Translations under genes and position numbers: made by a program | Part shown: one piece after another, positions 4,173 through 31,352 of the stretch | How the letters are laid out: each line of letters begins with the position of its first letter | How positions within the stretch are numbered: position 1 is the first letter of the stretch | The notes under the pieces: generated by a model | The model's input: the letters and a program-made list of their open reading frames with translations, nothing else | The model's database searches: none | What the model was told of the DNA's origin: nothing | NCBI GenBank assembly: GCA_030917925.1 | Contig: JAUPTV010000112.1 | Span: 1-47,683 of the forward strand | DNA: 47,683 nt | Direction of reading: 5' to 3' | Origin: Pseudomonadota bacterium | GTDB lineage: Bacteria; Pseudomonadota; Gammaproteobacteria; Competibacterales; Competibacteraceae

Positions 4173-6524
4173 ATGAACATCAACTGCATTAAAATTAGTT
4201 GGCATCTGCTGGCTATAGCCATTCTAACGGTAGCCACCGCCATACCGGTATGGTCTGCGCCTGCGTGCAAGACGGTCGCAAAAATCACCCCGACGAGACA
4301 AAATGTTGATGCCGGACAGATGATCAGTGGCGTTTTTACTCCAACCCAAATCAAGCTGGATGGCACCAAGTCGCAGGACGTTGACGTTGACGCTAACCCT
4401 GGCTACCAGTGGGAACAGATAGATGGCCCGGAGGTGACGCTGAGTAACCTGAATGCCCCGACATTGATGATCACAGCACCGGAAGTGCCGCCAGGGGGGG
4501 CAACGTTGACCTTCCGGTTGACCGTGAAAGGTTGCAGCAATCCCGTTCAGACCGATTCAACAACAACCATCGTGAACGTAGCATACATCGAGCATAACCA
4601 GCCCCCGCTTGCATCAGCCACGGTAGACCCGGTCGAGGTGCATGAGGGTAATATCGTGACCTTGGATGGCAGTCCCTCCACAGACCCTGATGGCGATGTG
4701 CTGACGTACCAATGGGCGCAGGTCCTGAACCCTGACGGCATTGAAGTTACCCTACAGTCAGACCCTACAGGGGCCACTGCAACATTTACTGCCCCAGACG
4801 TTTACCCAAACGACGGTGTGTCTCTGACATTTATCCTGACGGTCTCGGATGGTTATTTGTCCAGCTCTACCCAAACGACGGTGACAGTTATATGGGTCAA
4901 CGACCCGCCGACAGCCCAGGTGATTTGCCCAACGGTCATTGATGAGTACCAACAGATCACCCTTGATGGTCGCCCATCGTCGGACCCCGATGACGGTATC
5001 ATCACACATACCTGGACTCAGACCCAGGGTTTGCCCAATGCAGATTTGTCTCAGGTTGATCTAACCGCCAGCGTCATCAGTTTTACCGCACCGCCATTAA
5101 CATCCACGTTCAACACCATGGCCTTCAGTCTAACCGTGACTGACGCGGGCGGACTCTCGGATTCCACCGCCTGCTCGGTTATTGTCAAGGATGTGACCCC
5201 CCCTACGATCTATGGTGCCACTGATCAAACCGCAGAAGCCACCTCCGCTGAGGGCGCGATAGTAGACTTTACAGTCACTGCCACCGACCGGGCCGATGGG
5301 GAGCGTGAAGTCGAATGCGACTTTCCATCGGGCCACCAGTTCGCACTCGGAAACACCCCAGTGACCTGTAGCGCCAGCGATGTTGCCGGTAATACCACGA
5401 CAGCCTCGTTCCAAGTGCGGGTGGTTGACACCACGCCGCCAGACACTCACATTGTAGACACACCAAAAAATCCAACCAATCAAACCACAGCAACCTTTAG
5501 CTTCACCGGGTCGGACCTCGTGACCGCTCCCGGAAAGTTAACCTTCCGGTGCCAGTTGGATGAAACTCCTGAGGCTCCCTGCTCGAATCCCGTCACCTAT
5601 AGCGATCAGCGTGAGGGTCAGCATACCCTGAAAGTGTGGGCTATTGATGAGGCAGGGAACCAGGCAAAAACCCCTGCAGAGTTTCCTTGGCAGGTGGACA
5701 CAACTCCACCCATCATCACGGCCACAGTCAGTCCCGAGCGTCCAGAGTCGGGGTGGTGGAATAGTACGAGTGGCGCACCGTCAGTTACATTTACTTGTAG
5801 CGATGCAGCCTCCGGTGTGGCCTCTTGTCCAGAGACCTATACCTTTGGCGAGGGTGCGCACCAAAGCCACAGCGACACCGCTACTGACCAAGCGGGCAAC
5901 AGCGCGACCGTCAATGTAAGCGCTATTGACGTTGACCTGACTCTGCCCATCATCGACTCCTGGACTAGCGAACCAGCCAAGGACAGTTCCTACTACTTCG
6001 GTTTCGTCCCTGTAGCCCCAACCTGTGTGGCCACAGACGCACTATCGGGTATCAAGGACTGCACCATCACAGGTTATGGGACGACCGTAGGTAGCCACAC
6101 ACTAAACGCTACAGCAGAGGATGTCGCCGGCAACCGCCAGAAGGTCGTTATCGGCACTTACACCGTGTTAGCTTGGACACTTCGCGGCTTTTACCCACCA
6201 GTAGATATGGATGGCGTCTGGAATTCTGTCAAGGGTGGCTCAACGGTACCGTTAAAGTTTAGGGTCTTCGCTGGGCCAACCGCGCTGACCGATGTTGCTG
6301 TCGTCGACCAGTTTACCGCCAAGAGCGTGATTTGCCCGGGGGCTTCCGCCACGACGGCCGATGTTGAATTCACGACCACCGGTGGCACCGTACTGCGCTA
6401 CGATGCAACGGCGGGTCAGTTCATTCAGAACTGGCAGACCCCCAAAAATCCTAACGCCTGCTACGAAGTAACCATGCAGACCGACGACGGATCACCGCTC
6501 ATCGCACGATTCAAGTTGAAATAA
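4173..6524 (+). CDS. Large secreted PKD/HYR/Ig-like repeat protein with C-terminal PxKF domain
   Basis: 783 residues, starting 11 bases after GGAGG at 4157-4161. Residues 1-29 form a Sec signal peptide (hydrophobic core LLAIAILTVATAIPV, then WSA). Three PKD/cadherin-like beta domains follow to about residue 345, each with an LDG-x-x-S-x-D-P-D type motif (LDGSPSTDPDGD, LDGRPSSDPDDG). A HYR-like domain begins at DVTPPTIYG and includes VTCSASDVAGNTT. Further Ig-like repeats start with DTTPP. The end, from GFYPPVDMDG with TVPLKFRVF, matches the PxKF domain. It is probably exported and adhesive or surface-associated; no catalytic motif was seen. The gene stands alone, flanked by copies of the same short repeat (3897-3914 and 6695-6712), which suggests insertion as a block. 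Confidence 0.85.
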   Translation: MNINCIKISWHLLAIAILTVATAIPVWSAPACKTVAKITPTRQNVDAGQMISGVFTPTQIKLDGTKSQDVDVDANPGYQWEQIDGPEVTLSNLNAPTLMITAPEVPPGGATLTFRLTVKGCSNPVQTDSTTTIVNVAYIEHNQPPLASATVDPVEVHEGNIVTLDGSPSTDPDGDVLTYQWAQVLNPDGIEVTLQSDPTGATATFTAPDVYPNDGVSLTFILTVSDGYLSSSTQTTVTVIWVNDPPTAQVICPTVIDEYQQITLDGRPSSDPDDGIITHTWTQTQGLPNADLSQVDLTASVISFTAPPLTSTFNTMAFSLTVTDAGGLSDSTACSVIVKDVTPPTIYGATDQTAEATSAEGAIVDFTVTATDRADGEREVECDFPSGHQFALGNTPVTCSASDVAGNTTTASFQVRVVDTTPPDTHIVDTPKNPTNQTTATFSFTGSDLVTAPGKLTFRCQLDETPEAPCSNPVTYSDQREGQHTLKVWAIDEAGNQAKTPAEFPWQVDTTPPIITATVSPERPESGWWNSTSGAPSVTFTCSDAASGVASCPETYTFGEGAHQSHSDTATDQAGNSATVNVSAIDVDLTLPIIDSWTSEPAKDSSYYFGFVPVAPTCVATDALSGIKDCTITGYGTTVGSHTLNATAEDVAGNRQKVVIGTYTVLAWTLRGFYPPVDMDGVWNSVKGGSTVPLKFRVFAGPTALTDVAVVDQFTAKSVICPGASATTADVEFTTTGGTVLRYDATAGQFIQNWQTPKNPNACYEVTMQTDDGSPLIARFKLK

Positions 6525-13843: not shown

Positions 13844-16800
13844 ATGACCGCTATTCCCGTTTCGCCAAAAAAATTTTTGACTAATCAGGGTAAAAATACC
13901 CTGAGTCAGCGGCTGGAAACGATTTTACCGCAGACCCAGGATTTTGATTGTCTGGTGGGTTACTTTTTTATCAGTGGGTTTTTCCGCATGTATCCCGTGC
14001 TGGAATCGGTTAAGGCGATTCGTATTCTCATCGGTTTGAAAAATGAGCAAGTGGTGCATGGGTTGCTGCAAATTGTTCAGGATTCCACCGCATCGGAAAG
14101 CCGTTTGTCATCGGCGGAAATCCGGGAAATGTTTGGCGGGATGATGCGGAGTGAACTGGTTCAGGCGCAGGACTCACTGGCGATTGAAACCGGCATCCGC
14201 ACGTTTATTGCCTGGATTCGTTCGGGCAAGCTGGCGGTGAAGCTGTATCGTGAGCAGAATATTCATGCGAAGGTTTATATTATGACGCCTGAGCAGCGAC
14301 TGCCGGATGTTCATCATGGTTATGTGATTACCGGGTCCAGTAATTTTTCCTACAGTGGTTTGGAGGGTAATCTGGAATTTAATGTGTTGCTCAATGAACC
14401 GGAAGACCATGATTATGCCCTGCATCGTTTTAATGAGTTATGGGCAGAGGCGGTTGATGTTAAGGAGGTGCATGAGACCATTATTCAGGTGGTGGAAAGG
14501 GAGTCACCATTTGCGTTTTTTACACCCTATGAGTTGTATTTGAAATTTCTGGCGGAATACTTCCGTGATTATTTGGGCGACCGCTCAAAGTTGAATCCGG
14601 AAAATCTGCCCGCGAATTTTCGGAAATTACAGTATCAGGAAGATGCGGTTTTTACGGCTTTGCAGATGTTGAAAATGTATGGCGGGGTGTTTATTGCGGA
14701 TGTGGTGGGTTTGGGGAAGACCTTTATTTCAGCGTTGTTGGCGCTGCAACTGGATGGTCGTTGTCTGGTTATTGCGCCGCCGAGTCTGCTTGATGAAAAC
14801 AGTCCCGGTTCATGGTCACGGGTGTTTCGGGATTTTTGTATTCCTGGCCACAAGTGCGTTTCGATTGGCAAGTTGGAAGAAACGCTCAAACAGGGCGTTG
14901 ATTTCTATAAGTATGTATTTATCGATGAGTCCCATCGTTTCAAGGGCGATTCGACACAGCGTTACGAATTATTGACCCGCATTTGTCAGAATAAAGGCGT
15001 GATTCTGGTTTCAGCGACGCCCTATAATAATACGCTGGATGATATTTACAGCCAGTTGAAGTTGTTTCAGCCCCCGCGTAATAGCACGATTCCCGGATTG
15101 CCCAATCTGGAAGCTTTTTTTGACCGGTTGCGAAAGCGGTTGAAAGGCTTGCATCGTCTGGATGATGCGGAACGCTATGTTGAGACCGTTAAGGAAAATG
15201 CTCAGGAACTGCGGGATCGGGTGCTGAAATATATTATGGTGCGCCGCACCCGTCGTGAGATTGAAGAGTTTTATGGCGATGACCTGAAAAAACAGAAGTT
15301 GGGATTCCCGCAAGTGAATGATCCGGTGCCGTTGTTCTACCGGTTGAACCCGGATGAGAATGACGTTTTTACCCAGACTTTGCAGCAGATTACCAGTGCG
15401 GATTTTCATTACGCCCGCTATCAACCGCTCAATCCACTGTATTATACCGGGTCGCTGGAAGAGCGGGTTGTGCAAGGTCAGCGTAATTTAGCGACGTTTA
15501 TGAAAATCCTGTTGGTCAAGCGTTTGGAAAGCAGTTTTTATGCGTTTCAGGAGACGCTAGGTCGGTTTATTCAGTCGCATGAACTGGTGCTGAAAGCGTT
15601 TGATTACGGTTTTGTTTATACCAGTAAGAAGCACAGTCGCAAGGTGCTGGATTTTCTGGAAGAGGGCGATGATGATGCGATTGAGGCGTTGATTCAGGAG
15701 GAAAAAGTTGAGAAGTTTGCAGCAAAATATTTTACTCCCCTGTTTCGGGAACATGTTGATGTGGATTTGACGGTATTGCGTGAAATTCAGCAGGCATGGC
15801 AGGGCATTCAGCGCGATCCGAAGTGGCTGGAATTTAAACAGGAATTGGTGACGCAGCCGATTTTTAAAACCGGGAAACTGGTTATTTTCAGTGAATTTTC
15901 GGATACGGCCCGTTATTTGGCTGGGCGGATTAAGGCTGAAGTAGAGGCTAGGACGCTGTTTTTCAGTTCGCTGTCCAGTCCTGAACAGCGTCAAGCGGTA
16001 ATTGCGAATTTTGATGCAAATAGTCGTGAGGAAGTCGATGATTACCGGATTCTGGTCACGACCGATGTATTGGCAGAAGGCGTGAATTTGCATCGTTCGG
16101 CAGTGGTGATTAATTATGATATTCCGTGGAATCCGAGCCGGATGATGCAGCGGGTCGGGCGGGTGAATCGGGTCGGGACAAAGTTTAAAACGATTTTTAC
16201 CTATAACTTTTTCCCGACCGATGAAGGTAATGATGAGATTGCCTTAACCGAAGCGGCGAAGTTGAAGATTCATGCGTTTATTGCGCTGTTGGGAAATGAT
16301 GCGCGATTGCTGACTGGTGATGAAGAAATTACCTCGCATAATTTGTTTGACCGGATTAACTCCCGGCAAGCGGCAGAGGGTGATCTAGCGGAATCGAAGA
16401 GTGAATTGAAATATTTGCGGCTGATTCTCGATATTAAGGAGCAGCAACCGGCGTTGTTTCAGCGGATTCTGACGCTGCCCCGGAAAGCGCGGTCGAGTCG
16501 TACTACCCCCGATACTAACCTTCCGCTACAAGCAGGGAGGGAGTTGGATGGTGCGGTGCTGACTTATTTTCGCCAGGGACGGTTGGACAAGTTCTTTCGC
16601 GCTCAGGATGGCGATGAGGCGGTGGAGGAACTGGATTTTTTCAGCGCAGCGGGGATTCTGGAAACAACGGAGCAGGAACTGTTGCAGGAGATTCCAGCCG
16701 AAGCGTTTTACCGGTTGCTGGATCAGAATAAGCGTGGATTTCAGGGAGCGACGACGGTGGGGGTGGATAGTTTGTCATCGACTACCGCGACGAGTGGCCA

Positions 16801-17122
16801 TGAGGCGGCACTGTTGAAGCGGTTGCGGGCCAGGGATTTTCGCAATGCTGCGGGGTTGACGCCGGAAGATCGGAAACTGGCGGTGGAGGTTCATCGCTTG
16901 ATCGCGGAAGGTCGAATCGGTAAAAACACTTTGCGCAAGGTGAAAGCAGCGTTCGAGCAGACGGCTGATCCGGTTGAGATGGTCGCCATTCTCCGCAAGG
17001 AAGTCGCCAGTCAGTATCTGCTGGGCGCGGCTCCAAAGGCGGATTCAAAGGGGGTATCGGCTCCACGGGAGCTGATATTGTCTTCTTGGTTGTTTTGCGT
17101 TCCTGGCGGATTTGACCAATAA
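13844..17122 (+). CDS. PLD-nuclease/SNF2-helicase fusion, predicted restriction or anti-phage protein
   Basis: 1092 residues from ATG 13844 (AGGAA seven bases upstream). An open extension to 13757 overlaps the previous gene and is not used. The N-terminal domain has a single phospholipase D half-site: NIHAKVYIM (H-x-K), then GSSNFSYSGL and EFNVLLNE. The superfamily II helicase core follows: IADVVGLGKTFISALL (Walker A), YVFIDESHRF (DESH), VSATPYNN, and motif VI QRVGRVNRVGT. The C-terminal 250 residues are unassigned. It would be an ATP-driven DNA translocase with a nuclease head. The Phd-like antitoxin and the Eco57I-like methylase are on the same strand downstream, which fits a restriction-type pair of translocase/nuclease plus protective methylase. 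Codon use is visibly more AT-rich than in glgP or gor, suggesting acquisition. Confidence 0.88.
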   Translation: MTAIPVSPKKFLTNQGKNTLSQRLETILPQTQDFDCLVGYFFISGFFRMYPVLESVKAIRILIGLKNEQVVHGLLQIVQDSTASESRLSSAEIREMFGGMMRSELVQAQDSLAIETGIRTFIAWIRSGKLAVKLYREQNIHAKVYIMTPEQRLPDVHHGYVITGSSNFSYSGLEGNLEFNVLLNEPEDHDYALHRFNELWAEAVDVKEVHETIIQVVERESPFAFFTPYELYLKFLAEYFRDYLGDRSKLNPENLPANFRKLQYQEDAVFTALQMLKMYGGVFIADVVGLGKTFISALLALQLDGRCLVIAPPSLLDENSPGSWSRVFRDFCIPGHKCVSIGKLEETLKQGVDFYKYVFIDESHRFKGDSTQRYELLTRICQNKGVILVSATPYNNTLDDIYSQLKLFQPPRNSTIPGLPNLEAFFDRLRKRLKGLHRLDDAERYVETVKENAQELRDRVLKYIMVRRTRREIEEFYGDDLKKQKLGFPQVNDPVPLFYRLNPDENDVFTQTLQQITSADFHYARYQPLNPLYYTGSLEERVVQGQRNLATFMKILLVKRLESSFYAFQETLGRFIQSHELVLKAFDYGFVYTSKKHSRKVLDFLEEGDDDAIEALIQEEKVEKFAAKYFTPLFREHVDVDLTVLREIQQAWQGIQRDPKWLEFKQELVTQPIFKTGKLVIFSEFSDTARYLAGRIKAEVEARTLFFSSLSSPEQRQAVIANFDANSREEVDDYRILVTTDVLAEGVNLHRSAVVINYDIPWNPSRMMQRVGRVNRVGTKFKTIFTYNFFPTDEGNDEIALTEAAKLKIHAFIALLGNDARLLTGDEEITSHNLFDRINSRQAAEGDLAESKSELKYLRLILDIKEQQPALFQRILTLPRKARSSRTTPDTNLPLQAGRELDGAVLTYFRQGRLDKFFRAQDGDEAVEELDFFSAAGILETTEQELLQEIPAEAFYRLLDQNKRGFQGATTVGVDSLSSTTATSGHEAALLKRLRARDFRNAAGLTPEDRKLAVEVHRLIAEGRIGKNTLRKVKAAFEQTADPVEMVAILRKEVASQYLLGAAPKADSKGVSAPRELILSSWLFCVPGGFDQ

Positions 17123-17154
17123 TCCGAATCTGAAAGTCAATCAGGAACTAAATC

Positions 17155-17370
17155 ATGTTGCAACTTAATATTCACGAAGCGAAAACTCATCTATCGCGTT
17201 ATCTGCCGGCGCTGGAACAGGGTGAGACGATTCTCTTATGCAAACGGAATGTACCGATTGCTGAAATTCGGCCGTTACCAAAAATGCCCATTCAACCTCG
17301 CCCGCTCGGATTAGCCGCTGATAAGGGTGTTGAATTGCCGCCGGAATTTTTTGAGCCGTTGCCGTATTAA
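17155..17370 (+). CDS. Phd/YefM-family antitoxin without adjacent toxin
   Basis: 71 residues with AGGAA upstream. The start MLQLNIHEAKTHLSRYLPAL and the segment ILLCKRNVPIAEIRPL are the DNA-binding N-terminal fold of prevent-host-death antitoxins; the proline-rich tail is the toxin-binding part. Members usually precede a PIN or Doc toxin, but the next gene, 71 bases on, is a DNA methylase. A partner could lie elsewhere, or the protein may be a solitary regulator of the flanking defence genes. Confidence 0.85.
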   Translation: MLQLNIHEAKTHLSRYLPALEQGETILLCKRNVPIAEIRPLPKMPIQPRPLGLAADKGVELPPEFFEPLPY

Positions 17371-17416
17371 TACCAGACGGTCACATTCAGGCTTACCCCG
17401 TGCGAACTGTCTGGTA
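17371..17416 (+). promoter_or_regulatory. Inverted repeat between antitoxin and methylase genes
   Basis: TACCAGAC (17371-17378) and GTCTGGTA (17409-17416) are perfect inverted arms, extending by two more matched bases after one mismatch. They enclose 30 bases directly after the antitoxin stop codon and before an A/T-rich stretch leading to the methylase ribosome site. It may be a terminator or attenuator, or an operator for the Phd-type protein. Confidence 0.45.
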
Positions 17417-17441
17417 AAAAATTTAAATAAGGAAATGAATC

Positions 17442-20400
17442 ATGGATAAATTAACCGCGCAACGTCTGGTTCGCAGCACTTTTAAAGCGCCTTTTGATCG
17501 GGGGCGTTTTCGGGATTTTATTAACGAATTGTGCAATGGTTTTAATCAGGATAAAGCGCAGACTATGCAAGTGCCGGATGCGTTTGCAGCTCATGTGAAA
17601 AGTTGCCAGCGGTTGGGGACGTTTGCATCGCCGGAAGAGGAATTGGCGGATGTGTTGGTTGTGCATTTAACCGAGTCCTGGAAGTTGGAGCGCACGCGAA
17701 CAGCGCTGCGGGATTTTGTCGGGCATAAGTTGAAGCGTGGCGATGCTTATAAAGAGGCGGGCTTGATTGCTTTTGTGGCTCCGGATTCGCAGTCGTGGCG
17801 GTTTTCGTATATCCGTATGGAGTACGAAACGAAGCGCGATCCGAAAACCGGCAAGATTAAGGCAGAGGAGCGGTTGACGCCAGCGCGGCGTTATTCGTAT
17901 CTGGTAGGGGCGGATGAGGAGTGTCATACCGCGCAGACCCGGTTTCTGCCGCTGTTGCAAAACACTATGGCGAAACCGACGCTGGCGCAGATTGAGGAGG
18001 CGTTTAGCGTTGAGTCGGTCACGAAGGAGTTTTTTAATGAATATGCGCGGTTGTTCAAGGTCACGGAAGAGGCGTTGACTGCGGCGTTGGTTCCTCATTC
18101 GGCGATTCGGGAGGATTTTCAGGCCAAGGGGGTGAGTACTACGGATTTCGCCAAGAAGCTTCTGGGCCAGATTGTGTTTCTGTATTTCATTCAGAAGAAG
18201 GGTTGGCTGGGAGTAGGAAAGGGCCAGGCGTGGGGTGAGGGGCCGCGTCATTTTATGCGGCAACTGGTGGATCGGGCGGCAGCGAAGGGGCAACGTCTGT
18301 TTAATCAAGTGCTGGAGCCGTTGTTTTATGACACATTGGCGACGGATCGTGGCCCTGATGCCTGGTGTTCGATCTTTGAATGCCGTATCCCATTTTTAAA
18401 TGGCGGTTTGTTTGAGCCAGTGGCCGGGTATGATTGGAAACAGCAGGCACTGACGTTGCCGAATGCCTTATTTACTAATCAGCAGCTTTCGGCGTCTGGC
18501 GATATAGGCACCGGGATTTTGGACGTGTTTGATCGTTATAACTTTACGGTGAATGAAGCGGAGCCGTTGGAAAAGGAAGTGGCGATTGATCCGGAAATGC
18601 TCGGTAAGGTGTTTGAAAATCTGATTGAGGAAAATCGGCGCAAGGGGTTGGGCGCGTTTTATACGCCGCGTGAGATTGTGCATTATATGTGTCAGGAAAG
18701 TTTGATTAACTATCTGGATACGGTAGTGAATCAGCCGAACCGGATGATGGCGTTGACCGATATTGAGATGCTGATTCGGGAGGGGGCGCAGGCGGTGCAT
18801 TATGAGACGGCCCGCAAAGAGGGGACTGTGAGTGTTCAGCGCCACTTGCCAAAAGCGATTGAGGAACAGGCTCGCGTTTTGGATCAGGCTTTGAAAACAA
18901 TTACGGTTTGCGATCCAGCGATTGGTTCGGGCGCTTTCCCAGTGGGGATGATGACCGAGATTGTGCGTGCTCGCACTGTATTAACGCCCTATCTTAAAAC
19001 TGGGGATGGTGGCGGGGAAGATCGCACCGCTTATCATTTCAAGCGCCAGGCGATTCAGAATTCACTGTATGGCGTAGATATTGATAAAGGTGCTGTTGAA
19101 ATTGCGAAGTTGCGGCTGTGGTTATCGTTGGTGGTCGATGAAGAGAATGTGCAGAATATTAAGCCCTTGCCGAATCTGGATTATAAAGTGGTCGCGGGTA
19201 ATTCACTGTTGGGCGTAGAAAAAAATTTGTTTAATGACGAATATTTTAAACAGTTGGAACTGCTCAAGCCGAATTTTTTTGATGAATACGACCATGCAAA
19301 AAGAGCGCAATCCAAAGAGCAAATTGATGGGTTAATTTATCAACTGACCAAAAGCCGGGAAATTTTCGATTTCGAGATTTATTTCTCCGAGGTTTTTCAT
19401 GCGAAAGGTGGTTTTGATATTGTCATTGGTAATCCGCCGTATGTGCGCCATGAAGAAATTAAAGACCTGAAACCGCAGCTTAAATTGCGCTACGAATGCT
19501 TTACCGGCACAGCAGATTTATTCACTTATTTCTACGAACGTGGGATTAAGTTGCTGCATAACGGTGGTCAGTTTGCTTTTATTACTTCAAATAAATGGTA
19601 TCGCTCCGGTTATGGGGAAAAGCTGCGGGGTTGGTTGACGAAACAGACCCGGATTCATGAATTAATTGATTTTGGCGATGCGCCAGTTTTTGAAGCAATT
19701 GCATATCCGACGATTGTTTTGTTGCAGAGAATCGTACAAACCGAGGCGGATGCTGCTGCTACTTTCCGGGCATTAACCTGGAAGCCCGGTCCACCCATTG
19801 CAGATTTTGTGTCGATTGTCCGTCGCGACAGTTTTGATATTCCACAACGCAGTCTTGATAAATCCGGTTGGCGTCTGGAAGGGGCGGCTAAACGGAATTT
19901 GCTGGAAAAACTTCGTGCTGCCGGTACGCCATTGGGTGAATATTGCAAAGGTCGACTTTATCGGGGTATTGTCACTGGCTTGAATGATGCGTTTGTAATT
20001 GATCGCACTACCCGAGATCGGTTAATTTCAGAACATTCTTCTTCAGTGCAAGTTTTAAAGCCTTTTTTGCGTGGAAGAGATGTTAAACGTTGGCAAGTAG
20101 AGTCGAAGGATTTATGGTTGATTTTTACTAGGCGTGGAATTGATCTAAAAAGGTTTCCGGCAATTCAGGAATATCTGATGAAATTTAAAGCTTCCCTCAC
20201 GCCAGGGATTTCTGGTGGTCGAAAATCAGGAAGCTATCAATGGTATGAGGTTCAAGATAACATAGCTTATTGGCAGGAGTTCGAACAGCCTAATATTGCA
20301 TGGGGAAATCTTGCTACTCAACCCCAATTTACTTTTACCCCTACTGGCTACAATTTATGCGCCCCTGCAACATTTTTGGTTTCGGATTCTAAATATCTTT

Positions 20401-20678
20401 TGGGTGTTTTGAATTCTGAAATTACACGGTATCTCGTTTCACAAAGTGCAGCGGAGAGACAAGGTGGATTCCTGGAATATAAGCCTATGTATGTTTCTCC
20501 AATCCCTATTCCTGTTGCTACACCTGCCGAACAATCCGAGTTGGAAATACTGGTTCAGCGTATTCTTGAAAATCCAAACGCTGAAAATATTGCTGACAAG
20601 GAAGCCGAAATCAATGATCGGGTCTATCGGCTCTTTGGTTTGAATCGTGATGAAATTGCGCTGATTGAAAGTGTTTAG
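17442..20678 (+). CDS. Eco57I-like adenine-specific DNA methyltransferase (type IIG-like)
   Basis: 1078 residues, with AAGGAAA nine bases before the ATG. About 400 residues of N-terminal helical region include RRYSYLVGADEECHTAQTRF. The methyltransferase follows: AFYTPREIVHYM, motif I DPAIGSGAFPVGMM with Asp491, and motif IV NPPY from Asn664, the N6-adenine form. The C-terminal 300 residues resemble a TaqI-type specificity domain (GIVTGLNDAFVID, with PFLRGRDVKRW) and are more AT-rich. No clear PD-(D/E)XK nuclease motif could be assigned at the N-terminus, so cleavage may be supplied by the PLD-SNF2 protein upstream. Confidence 0.9.
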   Translation: MDKLTAQRLVRSTFKAPFDRGRFRDFINELCNGFNQDKAQTMQVPDAFAAHVKSCQRLGTFASPEEELADVLVVHLTESWKLERTRTALRDFVGHKLKRGDAYKEAGLIAFVAPDSQSWRFSYIRMEYETKRDPKTGKIKAEERLTPARRYSYLVGADEECHTAQTRFLPLLQNTMAKPTLAQIEEAFSVESVTKEFFNEYARLFKVTEEALTAALVPHSAIREDFQAKGVSTTDFAKKLLGQIVFLYFIQKKGWLGVGKGQAWGEGPRHFMRQLVDRAAAKGQRLFNQVLEPLFYDTLATDRGPDAWCSIFECRIPFLNGGLFEPVAGYDWKQQALTLPNALFTNQQLSASGDIGTGILDVFDRYNFTVNEAEPLEKEVAIDPEMLGKVFENLIEENRRKGLGAFYTPREIVHYMCQESLINYLDTVVNQPNRMMALTDIEMLIREGAQAVHYETARKEGTVSVQRHLPKAIEEQARVLDQALKTITVCDPAIGSGAFPVGMMTEIVRARTVLTPYLKTGDGGGEDRTAYHFKRQAIQNSLYGVDIDKGAVEIAKLRLWLSLVVDEENVQNIKPLPNLDYKVVAGNSLLGVEKNLFNDEYFKQLELLKPNFFDEYDHAKRAQSKEQIDGLIYQLTKSREIFDFEIYFSEVFHAKGGFDIVIGNPPYVRHEEIKDLKPQLKLRYECFTGTADLFTYFYERGIKLLHNGGQFAFITSNKWYRSGYGEKLRGWLTKQTRIHELIDFGDAPVFEAIAYPTIVLLQRIVQTEADAAATFRALTWKPGPPIADFVSIVRRDSFDIPQRSLDKSGWRLEGAAKRNLLEKLRAAGTPLGEYCKGRLYRGIVTGLNDAFVIDRTTRDRLISEHSSSVQVLKPFLRGRDVKRWQVESKDLWLIFTRRGIDLKRFPAIQEYLMKFKASLTPGISGGRKSGSYQWYEVQDNIAYWQEFEQPNIAWGNLATQPQFTFTPTGYNLCAPATFLVSDSKYLLGVLNSEITRYLVSQSAAERQGGFLEYKPMYVSPIPIPVATPAEQSELEILVQRILENPNAENIADKEAEINDRVYRLFGLNRDEIALIESV

Positions 20679-20719: not shown

Positions 20720-20983
20720 ATGCGTATCGAAACCGAACTGGATAGTTTCCATACTGAGCGCTTGCTATATTTGCAACAAAAGCTCCAGAAACCATTGACA
20801 GAGATTGTTGCTGAAATGTTAGCTAAAGCAATTGATATGGCGATTCCTGAAGAAAGAGAACCCCAGGAAACAGAAGGACAACGCATCTACCGCATTTTTG
20901 AAGAAGCTGGCCTCATTGGTAGTTTTGATGATGACGAAAGCCTTTCTGTCGATTACAAGAAGCACTTATGGAATAGTCAATGA
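20720..20983 (+). CDS. Antitoxin of a VapBC-type pair
   Basis: 87 residues; TGGAGA lies about ten bases before the ATG. The N-terminal 40 residues (MRIETELDSFHTERLLYLQQ) look like a short beta strand plus two helices, as in ribbon-helix-helix antitoxins. An acidic tail (EEREPQETEG, DDDESLSVDYKKHLW) would wrap the toxin. Its TGA overlaps the toxin ATG by four bases, the usual antitoxin-toxin arrangement. The family is inferred from context more than from a recognised signature. Confidence 0.8.
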   Translation: MRIETELDSFHTERLLYLQQKLQKPLTEIVAEMLAKAIDMAIPEEREPQETEGQRIYRIFEEAGLIGSFDDDESLSVDYKKHLWNSQ

Positions 20984-21402
20984 TGATTATCGTAGATACT
21001 GGATTTTGGGTTGCATTCTTCAATCGGAGAGATACCTACCATCTCCAAGCACGTCGATGTGTACCGCACTTGCAGGAATCCATGATTACTACTTTGCCGG
21101 TTGTGACTGAAACCTGTTATTTGCTTCAACATCGTGCGGGGATACCTATTATGTTAGCTTTCGTGGGCGCACTCCGCCAAGGTGGAAGCCAGATTTTCCA
21201 AATCCACGAGACGATGTTGATGCGTATCGAAGCATTGATGCATCAATACGCTAACTTACCTATGGATTTTGCTGACGCCTCGCTGGTGGTTCTGGCTGAA
21301 GATTTAGGGCATGGACGGATTCTTTCTACTGATGAGCGTGACTTTCAGACTTATCGCTGGAAAAACCATTATCCATTTGAAAATTTATTATTAAAAAACT
21401 AA
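20980..21402 (+). CDS. PIN-domain toxin, VapC-type ribonuclease
   Basis: 140 residues, translation coupled to the antitoxin by ATGA. PIN-domain acidic residues are in place: Asp6 (IIVDTGFWVAFFN), Glu44 (VVTETCYLL), Asp99 (MDFADASLV) and Asp118 (LSTDERDF). PIN toxins are metal-dependent RNases that cut tRNA or rRNA and stop growth when the antitoxin is lost. All active-site residues are present, so it is probably functional. Confidence 0.9.
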   Translation: MMIIVDTGFWVAFFNRRDTYHLQARRCVPHLQESMITTLPVVTETCYLLQHRAGIPIMLAFVGALRQGGSQIFQIHETMLMRIEALMHQYANLPMDFADASLVVLAEDLGHGRILSTDERDFQTYRWKNHYPFENLLLKN

Positions 21403-21634: not shown

Positions 21635-21874
21635 ATGCAACTCGTCGTTGAATATCCAGATGTGTTACCGGATGCACTACGGATCAGCCGCAATCAGTTT
21701 GAACAAGAAGCCCGAATGGCGATGGCCGTTAAATTATTCGAGTTAGGGCGTTTGACGAGCGGCCAAGCAGCAGAATTAGCTGGATTAGATCGCGTCGAAT
21801 TCATCATGAATTTGCATCGATATGGCGTTTCACCGATCCAGATTATGCCTGAAGAACTAGCGGAAGACTTATAG
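21635..21874 (+). CDS. UPF0175 family protein (antitoxin-like)
   Basis: 79 residues with GGAGGA upstream of the ATG. The family core ALRISRNQFEQEARMAMAVK is followed by LFELGRLTSGQAAELAGLDR, a helix-turn-helix-like stretch, and FIMNLHRYGVSPIQ. UPF0175 proteins usually accompany a DUF3368 PIN-like toxin. None follows here: the next gene is on the other strand after a hairpin, so this is an orphan. Confidence 0.85.
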   Translation: MQLVVEYPDVLPDALRISRNQFEQEARMAMAVKLFELGRLTSGQAAELAGLDRVEFIMNLHRYGVSPIQIMPEELAEDL

Positions 21875-25813: not shown

Positions 25814-27466
25814 TTACAACAGAATGTCACGCAGCCGCGTCCAGCTTTCGTCGGGCAGGGTTTTCAGGATGCGCACCAGTTTTTCATCACCGCTTTGCAG
25901 AATCCGGCTACGGATGTAGGGTGCCATCGTTTCCGATTCCTGGACTTCAGTTTCGTCAAGGTCCATGCCCCGGATGATTGCGCCGGTGCGCAGCGCTTCA
26001 TCCAGGGTGAGGGTAAAGCGGGTTGCAAAGGCCGCGCCGCAGGTTTGGCAGACGGTGGCATCACGGGGATTCAACGCCTCGCAATTTGGGCACGGTTTGA
26101 CGCGAGGGGCGATGAGCGGGAATGCGTGTCCGCATGACGGGCAGATCTTCGCGTTTAATGGACAGTCGCCGCCGCAGGCCGGGCAGCGTTTTGCGTGGAC
26201 ACTCTGGCCGGTCCGGATCGAGGCAGGCATTTCTTCCTCCACCCGTCGGGCGTAGCGCTCGAAGGTTTCAAAGGAGGGCATCACCACATAGGCGCGGGTG
26301 TCGTCGTCGGGGCCGTAGGTGCGCACGACCCGGCCAATCGCTTGCCGAAATGCCAGTTCGGTCATGGCATTGGGCAGATAGACCAGCACCCGCAGTCGGG
26401 GGATGTCCACCCCTTCGGAAATCATCGCGACCGAGACCAGCCAGCGCTTGTCAGTACTCTTGAACGCTTTGATTTTGCTTTCGGGATTCGCCATCTGGCT
26501 GTGCACCAGCACCGGCGTTTCCCCGTCGATCTGTTCAATCAGTCGGGCCAGGTATTCAGCCATATCGATGGTTGGGGCAATGACCAGACCGCCGGCGTTC
26601 GGCAGTCGCAGGCGTAGATCGTCCAGTTTCTGGCTGGCGCATTCGATCATGGTGGCCTGGTAGCCGGTCGCCAGAGGTGTTCGGGCGTCAGCTTCAAACT
26701 GGGGCGTACAGGCGAGCCGGTAGAAATCCAGCGCCCGTTGCAGGCCAGCGATACGAGCCAGTGGTTGAGGCAGTGTTACCGATTGCTGGCCGGATATCTG
26801 AAGGGCCTGGCCATCTTCTAGATCAACGGTAAAGCGGCCTTCGTGACGGTGGAAGGTGACCGGTCGGCAGTAGCCTAGATCGACAGCTTGGCCGTAGGTC
26901 AGGGTATAGGTCCCGCCTTCGGGATGGTTGATGGTGCCCGCGTCATCGTAAGGCATCCACACCGATTCCACGCCGTCCGAACGAATCGGGGTGCCGGTCA
27001 ACACCAGCGCAAACCGGGCATTGCTAAAGGCGCTGTCGGCCCCTTCACCCCAGGCGGCTTGTACGGCGGCATGGTGATGTTCATCGCAGATCACCAGCAC
27101 CTTGGCGGCACGGCACATCGCCTGTAGCGCATCTTCCAAGCCCTGAATGGCTGACCAAGTGGCGCACACATCCAGACCGAGGCTCTGAATATCGCCATCA
27201 CGGGCAGTGACTTTGCTCATATAGCGGCCGGTCACGCGCCGGAAATCGTCCGCCCATTGGTTGACCACTTCAGCGCGTGGAGCAATGACAATGATGCGGT
27301 CGATGTGCTGATGTTCGAGCAGGGTTTGGGCAATGACGCAGGACACCAGGGTTTTACCGGCGCCCGGCGCGGCGTTGATCAGGAATCGGCGATCCTGCCG
27401 ATCTTCGAGCAACCAGCGGAGCGCCTTAATCAGGGCTTGCTGTTGCCACGGTCTGAGTTTGCGCAT
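25814..27466 (-). CDS. DEAD/DEAH-box superfamily II helicase with two C-terminal zinc ribbons
   Basis: 550 residues, with GGAGGAA about 11 bases upstream of the ATG. The helicase core begins at residue 1: LRPWQQQAL (Q-motif-like), APGAGKT at 33-39 (Walker A), ICDEHHHAA (DEHH box), VLTGTPIRSDG, a second RecA domain with MISEGVDIPRL, and AIGRVVRTYG (motif VI). Two CXXC...CXXC ribbons follow at about 426-448 (CPACGG, CPSCGH) and 457-478 (CPNCEA, CQTCGA). Such helicases occur in phage and plasmid replication or recombination modules. It ends a three-gene minus-strand operon. It may be a mobile-element remnant or a defence helicase. Confidence 0.85.
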   Translation of the reverse strand: MRKLRPWQQQALIKALRWLLEDRQDRRFLINAAPGAGKTLVSCVIAQTLLEHQHIDRIIVIAPRAEVVNQWADDFRRVTGRYMSKVTARDGDIQSLGLDVCATWSAIQGLEDALQAMCRAAKVLVICDEHHHAAVQAAWGEGADSAFSNARFALVLTGTPIRSDGVESVWMPYDDAGTINHPEGGTYTLTYGQAVDLGYCRPVTFHRHEGRFTVDLEDGQALQISGQQSVTLPQPLARIAGLQRALDFYRLACTPQFEADARTPLATGYQATMIECASQKLDDLRLRLPNAGGLVIAPTIDMAEYLARLIEQIDGETPVLVHSQMANPESKIKAFKSTDKRWLVSVAMISEGVDIPRLRVLVYLPNAMTELAFRQAIGRVVRTYGPDDDTRAYVVMPSFETFERYARRVEEEMPASIRTGQSVHAKRCPACGGDCPLNAKICPSCGHAFPLIAPRVKPCPNCEALNPRDATVCQTCGAAFATRFTLTLDEALRTGAIIRGMDLDETEVQESETMAPYIRSRILQSGDEKLVRILKTLPDESWTRLRDILL

Positions 27467-27486
27467 GGTTTAGCGATTCCTCCGTT

Positions 27487-27762
27487 TCAGGTTTTGACCC
27501 AATACTCGGTGAGTTGAATTTCTCGCACCGGTAGATTGGCGGGCGGTTGCAGCACGGCGTGTTCGTTGATGCGCCGCACGGCGGTGGCGTAGGGGACGTT
27601 CCGCGATTCGATCATCCAGCCTTGACGGCGCATATCGGACATCAGGCCGGTCAGGTTTGAGACACCGTACAGCACCAGGGCTTCGAGGCGGGTGATGGGT
27701 TGACCGGTGGCGAGGTGTTCGCGCACGGCCAGAGTCATGCCATGTTTCGGGTGGGGATTCAC
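27487..27762 (-). CDS. Small helix-turn-helix/winged-helix protein
   Basis: 91 residues. The segment PITRLEALVLYGVSNLTGLMSDMRRQGW reads as a winged-helix DNA-binding fold of the type found in phage-encoded small regulators. Its ATG overlaps the TGA of the preceding gene by four bases, and the helicase starts 20 bases downstream, so all three are probably one operon. The target is unknown. Confidence 0.75.
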   Translation of the reverse strand: MNPHPKHGMTLAVREHLATGQPITRLEALVLYGVSNLTGLMSDMRRQGWMIESRNVPYATAVRRINEHAVLQPPANLPVREIQLTEYWVKT

Positions 27763-28082
27763 TCTTCAGTTCTCCGGGCGGCTAAACGGGCGAGACCGTT
27801 GTGGATCATGATTTCTTCGGCATCCCTGCGGCGCTGGGCCAAGGTTTGACGATATTCATAATTCAGGATACGCCAGCCGCCATCGGCCATAGCGACATCC
27901 AGGCTCCATTCCTCGAAGGGGATGCCGCCGGTCCGCAGTTCAAAGCTTGAAGTGTCTTCCGGGACGGTGAACAGTTCGACTAGGGCAGCGGCTTGTTCCA
28001 ACAGTTCGCGGGCGGTGAATCGGTCCCCTACGGTTCGGCGGAGTTCCTGAAACACAGCCCGAACCTGTTGCGGTCGATTCAT
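27759..28082 (-). CDS. Hypothetical protein, first gene of the helicase operon
   Basis: 107 residues from ATG 28082, which has GGGGAAGGT immediately upstream; a longer start at 28142 lacks a site. It begins MNRPQQVRAVFQELRRTVGD, with FTARELLEQAAALVELF next, and ends in a charged helix (TLAQRRRDAEEIM). I do not recognise the family. It overlaps the next gene by four bases. The AT-rich region upstream (28143-28200) should hold its promoter. Confidence 0.65.
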   Translation of the reverse strand: MNRPQQVRAVFQELRRTVGDRFTARELLEQAAALVELFTVPEDTSSFELRTGGIPFEEWSLDVAMADGGWRILNYEYRQTLAQRRRDAEEIMIHNGLARLAARRTEE

Positions 28083-28151
28083 ACCTTCCCCCTGAGTTTG
28101 TGCTGATGTGGCTTTATGGCTCCTTAGCAGGGGGCGTGCCAATTAATAAAA

Positions 28152-28185
28152 TTATTAAATTTATTTTAATAAACAACACTATAAT
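28152..28185. promoter_or_regulatory. AT-rich divergent promoter/operator region with palindrome
   Basis: TTATTAAA and TTTAATAA form a perfect 8-bp inverted repeat with a 5-base spacer (28152-28172). On the plus strand TATAAT at 28180-28185 is a consensus -10 element, whose -35 position would fall inside the palindrome. On the minus strand TTGTTT followed by AT-rich sequence could serve the helicase operon. The layout suits an operator covering divergent promoters, perhaps bound by the NadS-like protein. Confidence 0.45.
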
Positions 28186-28231
28186 TAGTGAAAGTGTGGG
28201 TGGAATGTGAGGGTGGGGCGGTTGAAGCTAT

Positions 28232-28263
28232 AAAATTTATTACTTGATAAGAAAATTTATTAC
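28232..28263. repeat. Direct repeats of AAAATTTATTAC
   Basis: Two exact copies lie at 28232-28243 and 28252-28263, 20 bases apart, about two helical turns. The core AAATTTATT also occurs at 28157-28165 within the palindrome. Such phased repeats are typical of repressor binding sites or iterons. The surrounding 28186-28306 has no gene. Confidence 0.45.
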
Positions 28264-28306
28264 GTGCAGTTCAGCTCAATGGGTAATGTTAGTGAGCTGT
28301 TGCCAA

Positions 28307-28381
28307 ATGTCGCTGCGGGAACGAAAGGCGCTTAAAGAAATGCTCAAGCGTGAATTGGAGGCAAGAGATGACCAAACGTAA
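28307..28381 (+). pseudogene. C-terminal remnant of a RelE/HigB-like toxin (tentative)
   Basis: A 24-residue frame, MSLRERKALKEMLKRELE and six more residues, overlaps the antitoxin start by 14 bases in another frame. Toxin genes upstream of NadS-type antitoxins commonly end in a charged helix like this and overlap the antitoxin. The body of the toxin is missing: between the -10 element at 28180 and this tail there are only 121 bases. The identification rests on position and the helix composition. Confidence 0.35.
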
Positions 28382-28682
28382 CTTGTTTATCGAAATGACG
28401 GAAGGTTTTGAGGCACTGGCCGAGGAACGTGCCGGCAAAAGGACTTTACGCACTCATGAAGTGGAAAGCTTGCCCGCGCCGAGCATGAAGGCTGCCGACA
28501 TTACCGCGCTCCGTGAGCGCCTCCACCTGTCACGTCCGTTGTTTGCCCGCTATTTGCGTACCAACCCGCGCACTCTCGAAAATTGGGAACAGGGGAGGGC
28601 AAAACCGAATGCCCAAGCGGCCTTATTGATCCGCTTGGTTGAACATTACCCCGATACGGTCGAGCGACTGGCGCGGTTGTAG
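28368..28682 (+). CDS. NadS-like helix-turn-helix antitoxin
   Basis: 104 residues from ATG 28368, with GGAG seven bases upstream; the in-frame start at 28350 is less likely. The N-terminus MTKRNLFIEMTEGFEALAEE and the HTH region ALRERLHLSRPLFARYLRTN then NPRTLENWEQGRAKPN are characteristic of NadS/HigA-2-like antitoxins, which repress their own operon. The partner toxin appears reduced to a fragment, leaving an orphan repressor. It converges with the PLD-like gene, 17 bases apart. Confidence 0.85.
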   Translation: MTKRNLFIEMTEGFEALAEERAGKRTLRTHEVESLPAPSMKAADITALRERLHLSRPLFARYLRTNPRTLENWEQGRAKPNAQAALLIRLVEHYPDTVERLARL

Positions 28683-28699
28683 TGGAGAAAATCACTTTA

Positions 28700-29638
28700 T
28701 TATTTAATGGGTAAGTTCAACGGGGACGGCCATTTCAAACTTCTAGGGCGGGCTGCGGGATCGAAGAGGCGTTGAATTTTGTCTTTATCCTCGCGGCCAA
28801 GTCGACCCCATGTCGACCAATCATCTGGCTTGCCCGTGATGTCGAACCCTCCGGGAACGCTGAAACCCACTATGTCGGTGATGAGATACCGTTCGTGGAA
28901 GTCATCCCAGAAGAAGACCTCTATCGTTAAGTTCAAGGATTGTAAAGCATTACCGAGCGAGGTAAAGCTCGCCTTCCAGTCTGCCTGGGTCGGGAAGGTA
29001 CGGGCAGGCCCATCACCCCTGCAAAAACTACGGTGGATTTCAATATGCGGCTTGATGGCACGCGACGCCAACGGCGCTAGCAATCGGTAGAACTCACGGT
29101 AGTTGTAGCTGTTTGGATCGAGATTGGGGTCGATGAACATCAGTGAGTTAGCTTGCATCAGCATCCGGTTCATCACTTTCAGGTAGCTGTCCGTCTTTCG
29201 GTCTACTGTAACCGATGGACTGCGGCGCTGCCACCATGTTGTGCCCGTGAGCTTTTCTATCGATGCGACCTCGCTTTGTGCGAACTGCTGTTTCGTTGCA
29301 TGCGCGGCAATGATGCCAGTCAGGGGTTCAATCCCATGCGCCGATAGACTCTCCTGACACCAGTGCTGCGCCGAGGTTGGCGTGGTGCCGGGTTGCGACG
29401 GAAAACGACTCAGTCGGTTGTTGCTTTGCAACTTCCTGAGAATTTCCTTGCCCAGGCGATGCAGGTTGCCGGACTGTTCCAGGCAGAAGCGACTCCATCC
29501 ACCGTCGCGTAAATCACGCACCAGCGCTTCCTGTAGAAGGGGTTCCTTGAGATGTGGCAGGCACATCTCGATGAAAGCCGGGTTGGAATAAGCTGCTGGA
29601 TCAAAAATGTCGGGAATGAGTACATATTCGTCAAGCAT
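28700..29638 (-). CDS. PLD-like effector candidate, last gene of the TPR-HEPN-AAA module
   Basis: 312 residues from ATG 29638, which overlaps the ATPase stop codon by eight bases; a longer frame to 29758 lies inside that gene. The C-terminal part shows IEVFFWDDFHERYLIT with H248-x-R250, then GFSVPGGFD, resembling a phospholipase D-type half-site with Arg in place of Lys. An earlier segment (LKVMNRMLMQANSLMFIDPN) may be the start of that fold. The N-terminal 130 residues are unassigned. Association with an SMC/ABC-type ATPase suggests a nuclease or phosphodiesterase effector. I do not recognise a named family; activity is inferred. Confidence 0.7.
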   Translation of the reverse strand: MLDEYVLIPDIFDPAAYSNPAFIEMCLPHLKEPLLQEALVRDLRDGGWSRFCLEQSGNLHRLGKEILRKLQSNNRLSRFPSQPGTTPTSAQHWCQESLSAHGIEPLTGIIAAHATKQQFAQSEVASIEKLTGTTWWQRRSPSVTVDRKTDSYLKVMNRMLMQANSLMFIDPNLDPNSYNYREFYRLLAPLASRAIKPHIEIHRSFCRGDGPARTFPTQADWKASFTSLGNALQSLNLTIEVFFWDDFHERYLITDIVGFSVPGGFDITGKPDDWSTWGRLGREDKDKIQRLFDPAARPRSLKWPSPLNLPIK

Positions 29639-31352
29639 CGCCGAACTGCTCCCGCAAGCCTTCTTCGAAGAAGCCGCCGGGCCAGGATTTGACCAATTCA
29701 CCAAGTTCGTTGAGCGGCATTTCACGCACAATGCTACATGTACCGTCGGGTTCCACATAGAGGACGGAAATATCTGCGGGGGTGATCGGTGGCAGCCCCG
29801 TATCTTTGTGAAGGTAGGTTTCGCGCATTCGACGCATCAATCGCAAGATCAAATGCTCGCTATGGGTTTCCAAAATGAATGTGTTTTTGCGCTCGCCGAG
29901 TGCGGCTTCGATGAATACATCACCCAGTTCAGCTTGCAACGCCGGATGAAGATGGATTTCCGGCTGTTCCATGGCGATTAGCTTGCCTTCTGAACCGTAG
30001 GCCATGACCAAAACGGGAAGGACCTGGGAGATGCCGATACCCACGTCTCGGTGAGTGACGAACGTATTAGTACGCTTATCAATCAAGACTAGCTCACTCA
30101 GCAATCTGCCCGGTTTTTCTTGAAAAGCCGACATCGTTTTCTCAAGGGATTTTTGGTGGTCCTTGAAATAAGGAAGACCCATTTGGGGGTAAGCAGCAGG
30201 ATTTTCCTGAAAATCACCAGGCATCAAGTCGAGTTCACTTTTTTCGATCTCTTCCAATCGAGACTCAATGACCTCTTCGATGGTGTCTGTACCGAAAAGC
30301 GAACGCACTATGAGTTTGTAAGGTGTCTTCAATTTGTCGGACCCTAGCCAGCCATTCACCATTTGGCGCACTTGATCATCGCGCCGCACCACGTCCCACG
30401 CATAGCCGCCTCCCGCATACCAGTTGGCGTCTTCGTGTTCGGCAAAGGCGAGGTGTCGAGGTGGAAAGGAGCGCAGGGGACCGAGATATTGAAGGTGTTT
30501 GAGTTCATCGGCCAGCACGTCGGAAAGTCCCTTGACGAGGTCGTTAATCGTGCGAGGCAAATAAAAGCGCACGGCTTGAGCGATGTCTTCGCGGCGATTG
30601 CCCTTGCTAATCGGAAACAACATGCTCACCGGCGAGAGTTCCGTGCCTTCAGTTTTGGGAAGTTCCACGGCGGTAGGGAAGAACTGCTCGATGCGGACCT
30701 GCAACTCGGGCAATACCTCAGCGATGGCCACATTAGCCCCATCGAAATCTTCTGGGCGCATCTCTTCGGAGGTAGTGGCTGATTCGACCAGCGCCTTGAG
30801 TACCTGCCGGAAGACGGGGTGGGTGGTATCCAAACGGTCCAGTCGCAAGATATTGCTGTCACTGTCCGAGCGCCGGCGGCTCATATACAGCAACTCGGCA
30901 TGGTCGACGCTGATATCGATGGACTCTACCCTCGGCTTAGCGTCCGGTTTGGGGCGATCCTGATCGTCCAGTTCGATACCCAGAGAGAGCGTTACGGTGA
31001 TAGTGTTCACCGACGCGAGCAACTGTATGAGACGCCCACTGAGGTTTGCAACCGTCAGTTCCGCGCCCCATTCCACTCTGCGGTTGGCTTGGGCGCGATG
31101 GACAAACTGGCGAAAACCGCCGAGATCAATGCTGCTGCCGCCTATATCCGTGTGATGGACATCGAGGCGAGCAAGGCTGCGCTTCTCGCGGCCAAACTGC
31201 GCCTCGTGGGCTAGCGCCAGACTGTGGATGAAGCTGGACTTACCAGCGCTGTTGGGGCCGAAGATCAGAGTGATGGGTTTGAGCGGAATGCGCTGGGTAT
31301 CGGCAAAGGCTTTGAAGTTGCCTATGTGCAGGGCGGTGAGACAGCGGTTCAT
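29631..31352 (-). CDS. AAA ATPase with DUF3696-type ending, putative defence sensor
   Basis: 573 residues; the ATG overlaps the HEPN stop codon by four bases. It is an SMC/ABC-type ATPase split by a long middle insertion. Motifs: Walker A FGPNSAGKSSF at 31-41, a signature-like VGIGISQVLPVLVMA, Walker B LIAMEQPEIHLHP, and the switch His in ILETHSEHLILRLMRRMRE. The WPGGFFEEGLRE end is typical of DUF3696 proteins. The partner gene follows with an eight-base overlap. In several defence systems such ATPases sense phage components and hold an effector in check; the trigger here is unknown. Confidence 0.85.
   Translation of the reverse strand: MNRCLTALHIGNFKAFADTQRIPLKPITLIFGPNSAGKSSFIHSLALAHEAQFGREKRSLARLDVHHTDIGGSSIDLGGFRQFVHRAQANRRVEWGAELTVANLSGRLIQLLASVNTITVTLSLGIELDDQDRPKPDAKPRVESIDISVDHAELLYMSRRRSDSDSNILRLDRLDTTHPVFRQVLKALVESATTSEEMRPEDFDGANVAIAEVLPELQVRIEQFFPTAVELPKTEGTELSPVSMLFPISKGNRREDIAQAVRFYLPRTINDLVKGLSDVLADELKHLQYLGPLRSFPPRHLAFAEHEDANWYAGGGYAWDVVRRDDQVRQMVNGWLGSDKLKTPYKLIVRSLFGTDTIEEVIESRLEEIEKSELDLMPGDFQENPAAYPQMGLPYFKDHQKSLEKTMSAFQEKPGRLLSELVLIDKRTNTFVTHRDVGIGISQVLPVLVMAYGSEGKLIAMEQPEIHLHPALQAELGDVFIEAALGERKNTFILETHSEHLILRLMRRMRETYLHKDTGLPPITPADISVLYVEPDGTCSIVREMPLNELGELVKSWPGGFFEEGLREQFGDA

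Follow-up and report, generated by a model that had tools for sequence, protein, structure and literature searches.

In the accessible part of its 2018 account, the putative type II restriction-modification (R-M) system orf33-orf34 of the Lactococcus lactis plasmid pLd8 is assigned a restriction domain within its PLD-SNF2 helicase protein, and the authors remarked on a likeness to class I DISARM (PMC6098607). In the available sections on Pin17FIII of Prevotella intermedia 17F, the gene of a 'Type IIG' methylase is preceded by that of an SNF2/RAD54 helicase, and the methylase expressed by itself gives N6-methyladenine (m6A) at GGYGAB (PMC5608340). Type-2 BREX-related (BR, or Hma) systems, according to the portion consulted, combine an HKD-Swi2/Snf2 helicase effector with a protective N6-methylase (PMC12839542). 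Here we analyse positions 13844-20678 of a 47,683-nucleotide stretch of a Competibacteraceae genome (contig JAUPTV010000112.1, the whole stretch being hereafter the window), where a PLD-SNF2 helicase gene precedes an Eco57I-type methylase gene. Judging from gene content and conserved motifs, this locus is likely to encode a two-component ATP-dependent R-M system in which the helicase would cut and the methylase would protect; the gap between the two genes would be a cargo slot, and the Phd-like open reading frame (ORF) lying in it a remnant.

The helicase, the Phd-like ORF, an inverted repeat and the methylase follow one another in that order, and all the ORFs were confirmed on one strand (Table 1). 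In an alignment of 38 helicases including that of the window, the PLD residues H141, K143, N167 and E178 are invariant, as are the motor residues, namely the Walker A lysine K292, D361/E362/H364 and R770/R773. We take the H-x-K...GSSN...E arrangement to resemble that of BfiI and NgoFVII. Together with a PLDc_2 match above its cut-off, these invariant residues bear out the preliminary description of the locus, which had credited the helicase with a PLD nuclease motif of its own.

The two genes travel together. A scan of genome contigs with the helicase gave at least 583 relatives among 589 candidates, and the best 80, from many phyla according to their titles, were kept; locus counts below rest on these 80 unless another sample is named (relatives' loci are coded L, genomes G). 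In 66 of the 80 loci the helicase is followed on its own strand by a methylase match, which in two (L008 and L028) is confined to the C-terminal part. Of the remaining 14, ten are cut off by the contig edge no more than 108 bases after the helicase, whereas L011, L029, L061 and L083 run through other genes to the contig end. In the entire assemblies of 40 of these genomes, which were thus chosen through helicase similarity, 39 of 42 helicase matches above 1300 bits have an adjacent, co-directional methylase downstream; the three others are followed by a cargo gene and a truncated methylase, by a contig edge, and by cargo up to the contig end. Conversely, of the 40 methylase matches beginning at model position 1-2, 39 have a helicase directly upstream; the single unpaired one is on a contig of 3615 bases, where the stub preceding it still codes for a helicase C-terminus.

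The pairing was also approached from the methylase side, in 400 genomes of another phylum, the one to which G417 (source of an Anaerolineales-titled locus) belongs; no more than two candidates were scored in each genome. Of 42 methylase places, six carry the N-terminal domain described below, and all six lie beside the helicase. Among the 36 without this domain, 14 were opened: five have no helicase-like match, six a more distant one upstream and three one downstream; the distant upstream helicases of L149 and L152 are 30-32% identical over most of their length. Within what was searched, the N-terminal methylase domain goes with this helicase. These results show that helicase and methylase form a real unit, and the frequent separation of the genes that would have spoken against a split restriction system was seen neither in the 40 genomes nor in the methylase-led sample.

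The nearest relative over almost the full helicase, among the 80 loci, is that of Candidatus Contendobacter odensis (L005; 79% identity in the best segment), and a partial relative in a Competibacteraceae metagenome-assembled genome is 87% identical on a contig that ends inside the helicase. At E 1e-100 the helicase occurs in 2 of 398 sampled genomes of the window's own phylum, one being the window's own genome, and no place in phage records covered 80% of it.

The methylase has an Eco57I match of 158 bits, and its full AlphaFold2 model has a predicted local distance difference test (pLDDT) score of 84. The model aligns with CamA (Z 30.5, residues 382-1067), with BrxX (Z 27.2, residues 192-1078, BrxX being aligned from its own residue 1) and with LlaGI (Z 24.5). 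About 185 residues precede the BrxX-like part. This domain, modelled within residues 1-300 at a pLDDT of 86.7, had not appeared in the preliminary description, and neither had the VapC-type pair downstream of the methylase. Across 43 aligned sequences, R86, R90, W119 and R120 are present in all and D70 in 42. In a separate comparison with a Prevotella nigrescens cousin, D70 is aligned to a gap.

The position of this domain raises the possibility of a methylase that acts by itself as a type IIG enzyme, with the helicase as an accessory. By alignment ranges, the domain occupies the same place as the N-terminal portion of DrdV and BpuSI, which we take to be their nuclease; a weak likeness to the DrdV N-terminus (Z 5.6) points the same way, and the top PADLOC model for the methylase is 'Type IIG restriction enzyme-methyltransferase' (PDLC03596, 854 bits). 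However, the N-terminus shows no PD-(D/E)xK motif and no (E/D)xK conserved across the 43 sequences, D70 is aligned to a gap in the P. nigrescens cousin, and the methylase is paired with a helicase that holds an intact PLD site. Comparisons with solved structures gave no sequence match for the domain at E 0.1, a best Foldseek E of 0.012 and a best VIA-align Z of 5.7 (SSO0001), where the tool itself places noise at 7 to 8; further rows below noise included a restriction-endonuclease-like protein, racemases and pyrophosphatases. By its motifs the methylase N-terminus thus bears no sign of an active nuclease, the fold matches being too weak to weigh either way, and a self-contained type IIG enzyme appears unlikely. 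The earlier statement that the methylase shows no clear nuclease stands on these motif grounds, and the nuclease domain that might have overturned it is represented by nothing stronger than the fold matches just listed.

The gap between the genes measures 319 bases in the window and 2 bp in L005, which has no antitoxin gene there. Measured between alignment ends in 39 pairs, gap lengths are bimodal, with 5-16 bases in 19, 608-1839 in 19 and 176 in one. For a census we started from 86 loci (the 80 scan loci, the window and L137-L141) and left 12 unlabelled: ten with a contig edge at most 108 bases from the helicase, L008 with its truncated methylase, and L037 with a broken frame and unknown bases. 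With gaps below 100 bases counted as empty, and the frame-broken L067 among them, the slot is empty in 42 of the 74 labelled loci and occupied in 32; start and stop codons overlap by 4 bases in 8 of 38 empty loci.

The cargo is diverse. The largest class, a Schlafen-AlbA_2 protein with HATPase, fills 8 of the 32 occupied slots. Seven hold cargo of the toxin-antitoxin kind: the Phd-like ORF of the window, a PIN gene in L007 (VapBC, the VapB label being by eye), Gp49 with HTH in L011, AbiEii in L027, NTP_transf_2 with HepT (HEPN-MNT) in L052, a weak HicB in L071 and a 40-aa remnant named by eye in L072. Bro-N occurs in five, NYN in four and Fic in two, and DUF4062-HATPase, KilA-N, DUF559, DUF3800, a Y1 transposase (L083) and a non-coding insert (L048) in one each. 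The L071 slot (4424-4980) contains two tandem HicB-like ORFs, labelled from model matches below the Pfam cut-off, and no recognisable HicA. The named ORF of every coding insert is co-directional with the pair, and an AlbA_2-like ORF, named by eye, occupies the same position in a distant Prevotella locus (L161). On a FastTree tree of 81 helicases, 73 of them labelled (L041 was excluded for a helicase ORF below 950 aa), occupied and empty states require a minimum of 23 changes. Randomly shuffled labels average 24.4, and since 66 of 200 shuffles come to 23 or fewer, the state carries no tree signal. The gap is thus a volatile slot in which small defence genes, of toxin-antitoxin, RNase or other types, are recurrently inserted, co-directional with the pair.

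The preliminary description had reported an orphan Phd antitoxin and an inverted repeat between the two genes, and both are present. The match to PhdYeFM_antitox is below threshold (21.3 bits against a curated cut-off of 29.8). The repeat is strong, with a folding energy of -19.6 kcal/mol and a z of -3.3 relative to 200 shuffles, and a search for its pattern across the 299 contigs of the genome yielded this single site. A Phd match was present in 109 plasmid records, and three of the 20 listed were opened (H45, H46 and H62); their antitoxin ORFs measure 237-261 bases including the stop (79-87 codons) and each is followed by an overlapping VapC gene. The window ORF is shorter, at 216 bases (72 codons including the stop), and no toxin gene stands between it and the methylase, so that the Phd-like ORF does not make up a type II toxin-antitoxin module. 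Two other identities for the hairpin were rejected: a repeated mobile element, as no second copy was found in the genome, and an intrinsic terminator, as the hairpin is followed by A rather than T and terminator counts equal chance.

The Phd-like protein had been proposed as a repressor that binds the repeat and thereby sets the ratio of nuclease to methylase. Its gene does lie between the two others in the same direction, beside a strong hairpin seen at this place only, and it retains the N-terminal half of the Phd fold. Against this, a Phd-type gene fills the slot in 1 of 74 labelled loci, the ORF is shorter than its three relatives and lacks the VapC partner seen in them, and no promoter-like site was found ahead of the methylase, in a scan that gave 5 sites against 10.6 in shuffles. 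The repressor role is unsupported because the gene is absent from the nearest relative with a visible gap, the slot is volatile and the ORF resembles a remnant; we regard a working repressor as improbable. The lone Phd-like ORF is, from these comparisons, probably a leftover of a toxin-type insertion and not the switch of the system, and the hairpin is possibly a remnant of the same kind of insertion.

The preferred reading is therefore that of a split restriction system, as had been proposed, and it is supported by the two-sided gene pairing, the intact PLD and motor residues and a methylase with its own specificity domain. The published Pin17FIII, similar in layout and with a methylase active alone at GGYGAB (PMC5608340), speaks for it too. 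In such a system, the methylase would use its C-terminal specificity domain to recognise a short asymmetric target and would mark one adenine. An unmarked site would engage the helicase, which would translocate on DNA and cut with its PLD nuclease. The methylase N-terminal domain may dock onto or signal to the helicase, and, as with type ISP enzymes, cutting may require either that two complexes converge or that a PLD dimer forms.

Several points weigh against this interpretation. The scan loci and the 40 genomes were selected by helicase similarity, and the methylase-led sample comes down to six places with no more than two candidates per genome. Some of the top fold rows for the N-terminal domain are restriction-endonuclease-like, though even the best lies under noise, and since D70 is kept in all but one of the aligned sequences, an unusual nuclease site there is possible. 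PADLOC classes such methylases as type IIG, restriction and methylation by this subfamily are predictions from sequence, and Pin17FIII is likened by its layout, the sequence comparison having used a P. nigrescens locus in its place.

A wider model can be offered tentatively, and we hold it with considerable reserve. Here the loci would form a widespread family with a docking site, between the nuclease and methylase genes, for exchangeable guard modules (toxin-antitoxin pairs, HEPN-MNT, Fic, Schlafen-AlbA_2, NYN). The cargo would be co-expressed with the pair and might kill or stall the cell upon loss of the system or its block by a phage, and the methylase N-terminal domain would recruit the nuclease-motor. 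The guard idea is not new in itself, because the accessible text of two accounts already contains it: such a role has been proposed for PrrC-type and other R-M-linked genes, with HEPN and Fic/Doc-type genes described as a second line (PMC3710099), and for BREX loci, BREX and BR loci being said to recruit backup RNases including HEPN-MNT and Schlafen (PMC12839542). A literature search, little of which reached subscription journals, found no description of the slot or of the N-terminal domain of this family. As the slot provides a natural series of otherwise similar systems that differ in their backup module, the guard idea becomes testable by swaps. In addition, methylases with a 'type IIG' profile are easily taken as self-contained enzymes, whereas here the nuclease appears, from the data, to be encoded next door, and predicted enzymes of this kind may fail to cut if cloned alone.

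Table 1 Features of the locus and of the genes that follow it (window coordinates)
Feature	Position	Strand	Evidence
HKD/PLD-SNF2 helicase-nuclease, predicted restriction subunit, 1092 aa	13844..17122	+	Pfam PLDc_2, SNF2-related, Helicase_C; invariant residues; methylase pairing
PLD-like nuclease stretch, residues 126-200: H141-x-K143, GSSN (N167), E178	14219..14443	+	PLDc_2 above cut-off; RE_NgoFVII below its cut-off
SNF2 motor, SNF2-related stretch through Helicase_C, residues 345-778	14876..16177	+	Pfam; invariant motifs
Orphan Phd/YefM-like antitoxin ORF of 71 aa; probable remnant, without toxin, of an inserted phd-vapC pair	17155..17370	+	Sub-threshold Pfam; absent in L005
Inverted repeat/hairpin before methylase start	17371..17416	+	11-nt arms, 24-nt loop
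Eco57I-type N6-adenine methylase with own specificity domain, predicted modification subunit, 1078 aa	17442..20678	+	Pfam Eco57I, TaqI_C; BrxX/CamA-like fold model
Additional N-terminal methylase domain (about residues 1-185) that precedes the BrxX-like part; candidate docking/sensing domain	17442..17996	+	AlphaFold2; column counts; helicase co-occurrence
TaqI_C-like target recognition stretch, residues 873-1023	20058..20510	+	Pfam TaqI_C
Downstream VapBC-like pair: 87-aa ORF (20720-20983) and PIN toxin (20980-21402)	20720..21402	+	PIN Pfam domain
UPF0175 gene, also downstream of the L005 methylase	21635..21874	+	Pfam UPF0175; 78% DNA identity to L005

In the VapBC-like pair that follows the methylase, the 87-aa ORF has no Pfam match, and the PIN ORF scores far below the cut-off of TA_toxin_VapC. 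L005 retains the UPF0175 gene but has a DUF4258 gene right behind the methylase in place of this pair, so genes are exchanged downstream of the methylase too. First downstream genes were assigned in 40 loci, 34 of them co-directional, and their families include SMC and AAA_15 ATPases (7 and 5 members), OLD-TOPRIM (3), AAA_13 (2), SIR2 (2), RhuM and HEPN. The first upstream ORFs (53 of 54 scanned, L021 being left aside) are mixed, with housekeeping, TPR and recombinase genes, and no plain defence family appears among 25 of their 96 families. Farther along the window, a minus-strand cluster at 25814-31352 may also serve defence: one of its genes encodes an SF2 helicase with ResIII and a double zinc ribbon, another an AAA_15/AAA_21 ATPase that PADLOC matches to its PDC-M55A/NsnB models.

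The window's genome holds two other pairs. One (L163, 3435-9359 of G000:C105) is divergent, with a 1331-aa methylase and a short helicase ORF of 620 aa, amid ORFs that by eye are flagellar or export-like, of the FliR, FliQ, FliP and FliI kind. In the other (L164, 122-6307 of G000:C31), a methylase of 999 aa and a helicase of 1060 aa are weakly similar to those of the window.

In a close relative, L007 (15365-17880), the gene order behind the methylase is an inverted specificity cassette, immediately adjacent and on the minus strand (16303-17193), and then a serine recombinase. The inverted arms that it shares with the methylase gene span 294 nt at 85% identity, with a 128-bp stretch at 98%, and the cassette is likely a phase-variable specificity switch. 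Among the scan loci with a methylase, only L007 has such a minus-strand cassette, and the window has none. A PLD-SNF2 helicase, a methylase, an inverted specificity fragment and an annotated Mpi-type invertase are also found together in Lactococcus cremoris pJM1F (L165, 1668-10161) and in P. nigrescens (L162, 8680-20303). The recombinases of these three loci are 55-59% identical, and because the loci share layout and related recombinases, specificity switching by inversion seems recurrent in the wider family.

That the pair is a degraded piece of a DISARM, BREX or DUF499 BREX-related (Hma) system is highly improbable: weak PADLOC matches, of 123 bits to both DrmD and DrmMI and of 83 bits to BrxH, and the helicase-methylase composition of Type-2 BR systems favour it, but no Drm, Brx or Pgl match was found by PADLOC at E 1e-10 in the ten other large ORFs at 2.7 to 31.4 kb of the window, DUF499 is absent from the window's genome, and the bare pair recurs, in 66 of the 80 loci.

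DISARM class I (DrmD, DrmMI) likewise joins an SNF2 helicase to an adenine methylase; membership was rejected on a DrmD equivalog score (NF038317) of 138 bits against a cut-off of 610, and neither DrmA, DrmB nor DrmC is among the large window ORFs just mentioned. The locus thus resembles DISARM without matching it, as had been observed at the outset. The pair shares with Type-2 BR/Hma systems an HKD-Swi2/Snf2 helicase and an N6-methylase, whereas those systems, in the available text, are built around a DUF499 ATPase, accompanied in almost all cases by DUF3780 (PMC12839542). BREX and DUF499 membership was rejected in the absence of any Brx or Pgl match in the large ORFs and with zero DUF499 matches in the fragmentary contigs of the window's genome. 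DUF499 does occur in 9 of the 40 relatives, on other contigs than the pair except for one same-chromosome case about 2.5 Mb away. DUF3780 did not turn up in a general Pfam scan of 18 window ORFs, which was not aimed at it.

By description, pLd8 orf33-orf34 is, together with Pin17FIII, the closest published system, being a PLD-SNF2 helicase with a 'type IIG' N6-methylase that lacks a nuclease, and the accessible part of that account differs in mentioning no cargo slot (PMC6098607). The window has the same composition: its PLD-SNF2 gene directly precedes that of an N6-methylase in which TaqI_C, but no nuclease, was recognised. A nuclease-translocase and a protective methylase under antitoxin control had been put forward as an unusual arrangement; the division of labour is likely but was already in print for pLd8 (PMC6098607), and the antitoxin control is unsupported. 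In the pLd8-like locus of L. cremoris pJM1F, the helicase is 27-28% identical, and because the methylase match begins only at residue 187, the N-terminal domain is unrecognisable there. In the P. nigrescens locus, laid out like Pin17FIII, the methylase is 34% identical over residues 45-590, the N-terminal domain included. Pin17FIII itself, in the sections available, has a second, inverted ORF and several motifs (PMC5608340), unlike the window, which lacks an inverted cassette. The type ISP enzymes LlaGI and LlaBIII follow the same logic of nuclease, motor, methylase and specificity domain, but, in the part of the account at hand, in one polypeptide with an Mrr-like nuclease (PMC3874165), whereas the window divides these parts between two ORFs and has a PLD nuclease. 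In its predicted anatomy, the locus fits a split type ISP-like machine.

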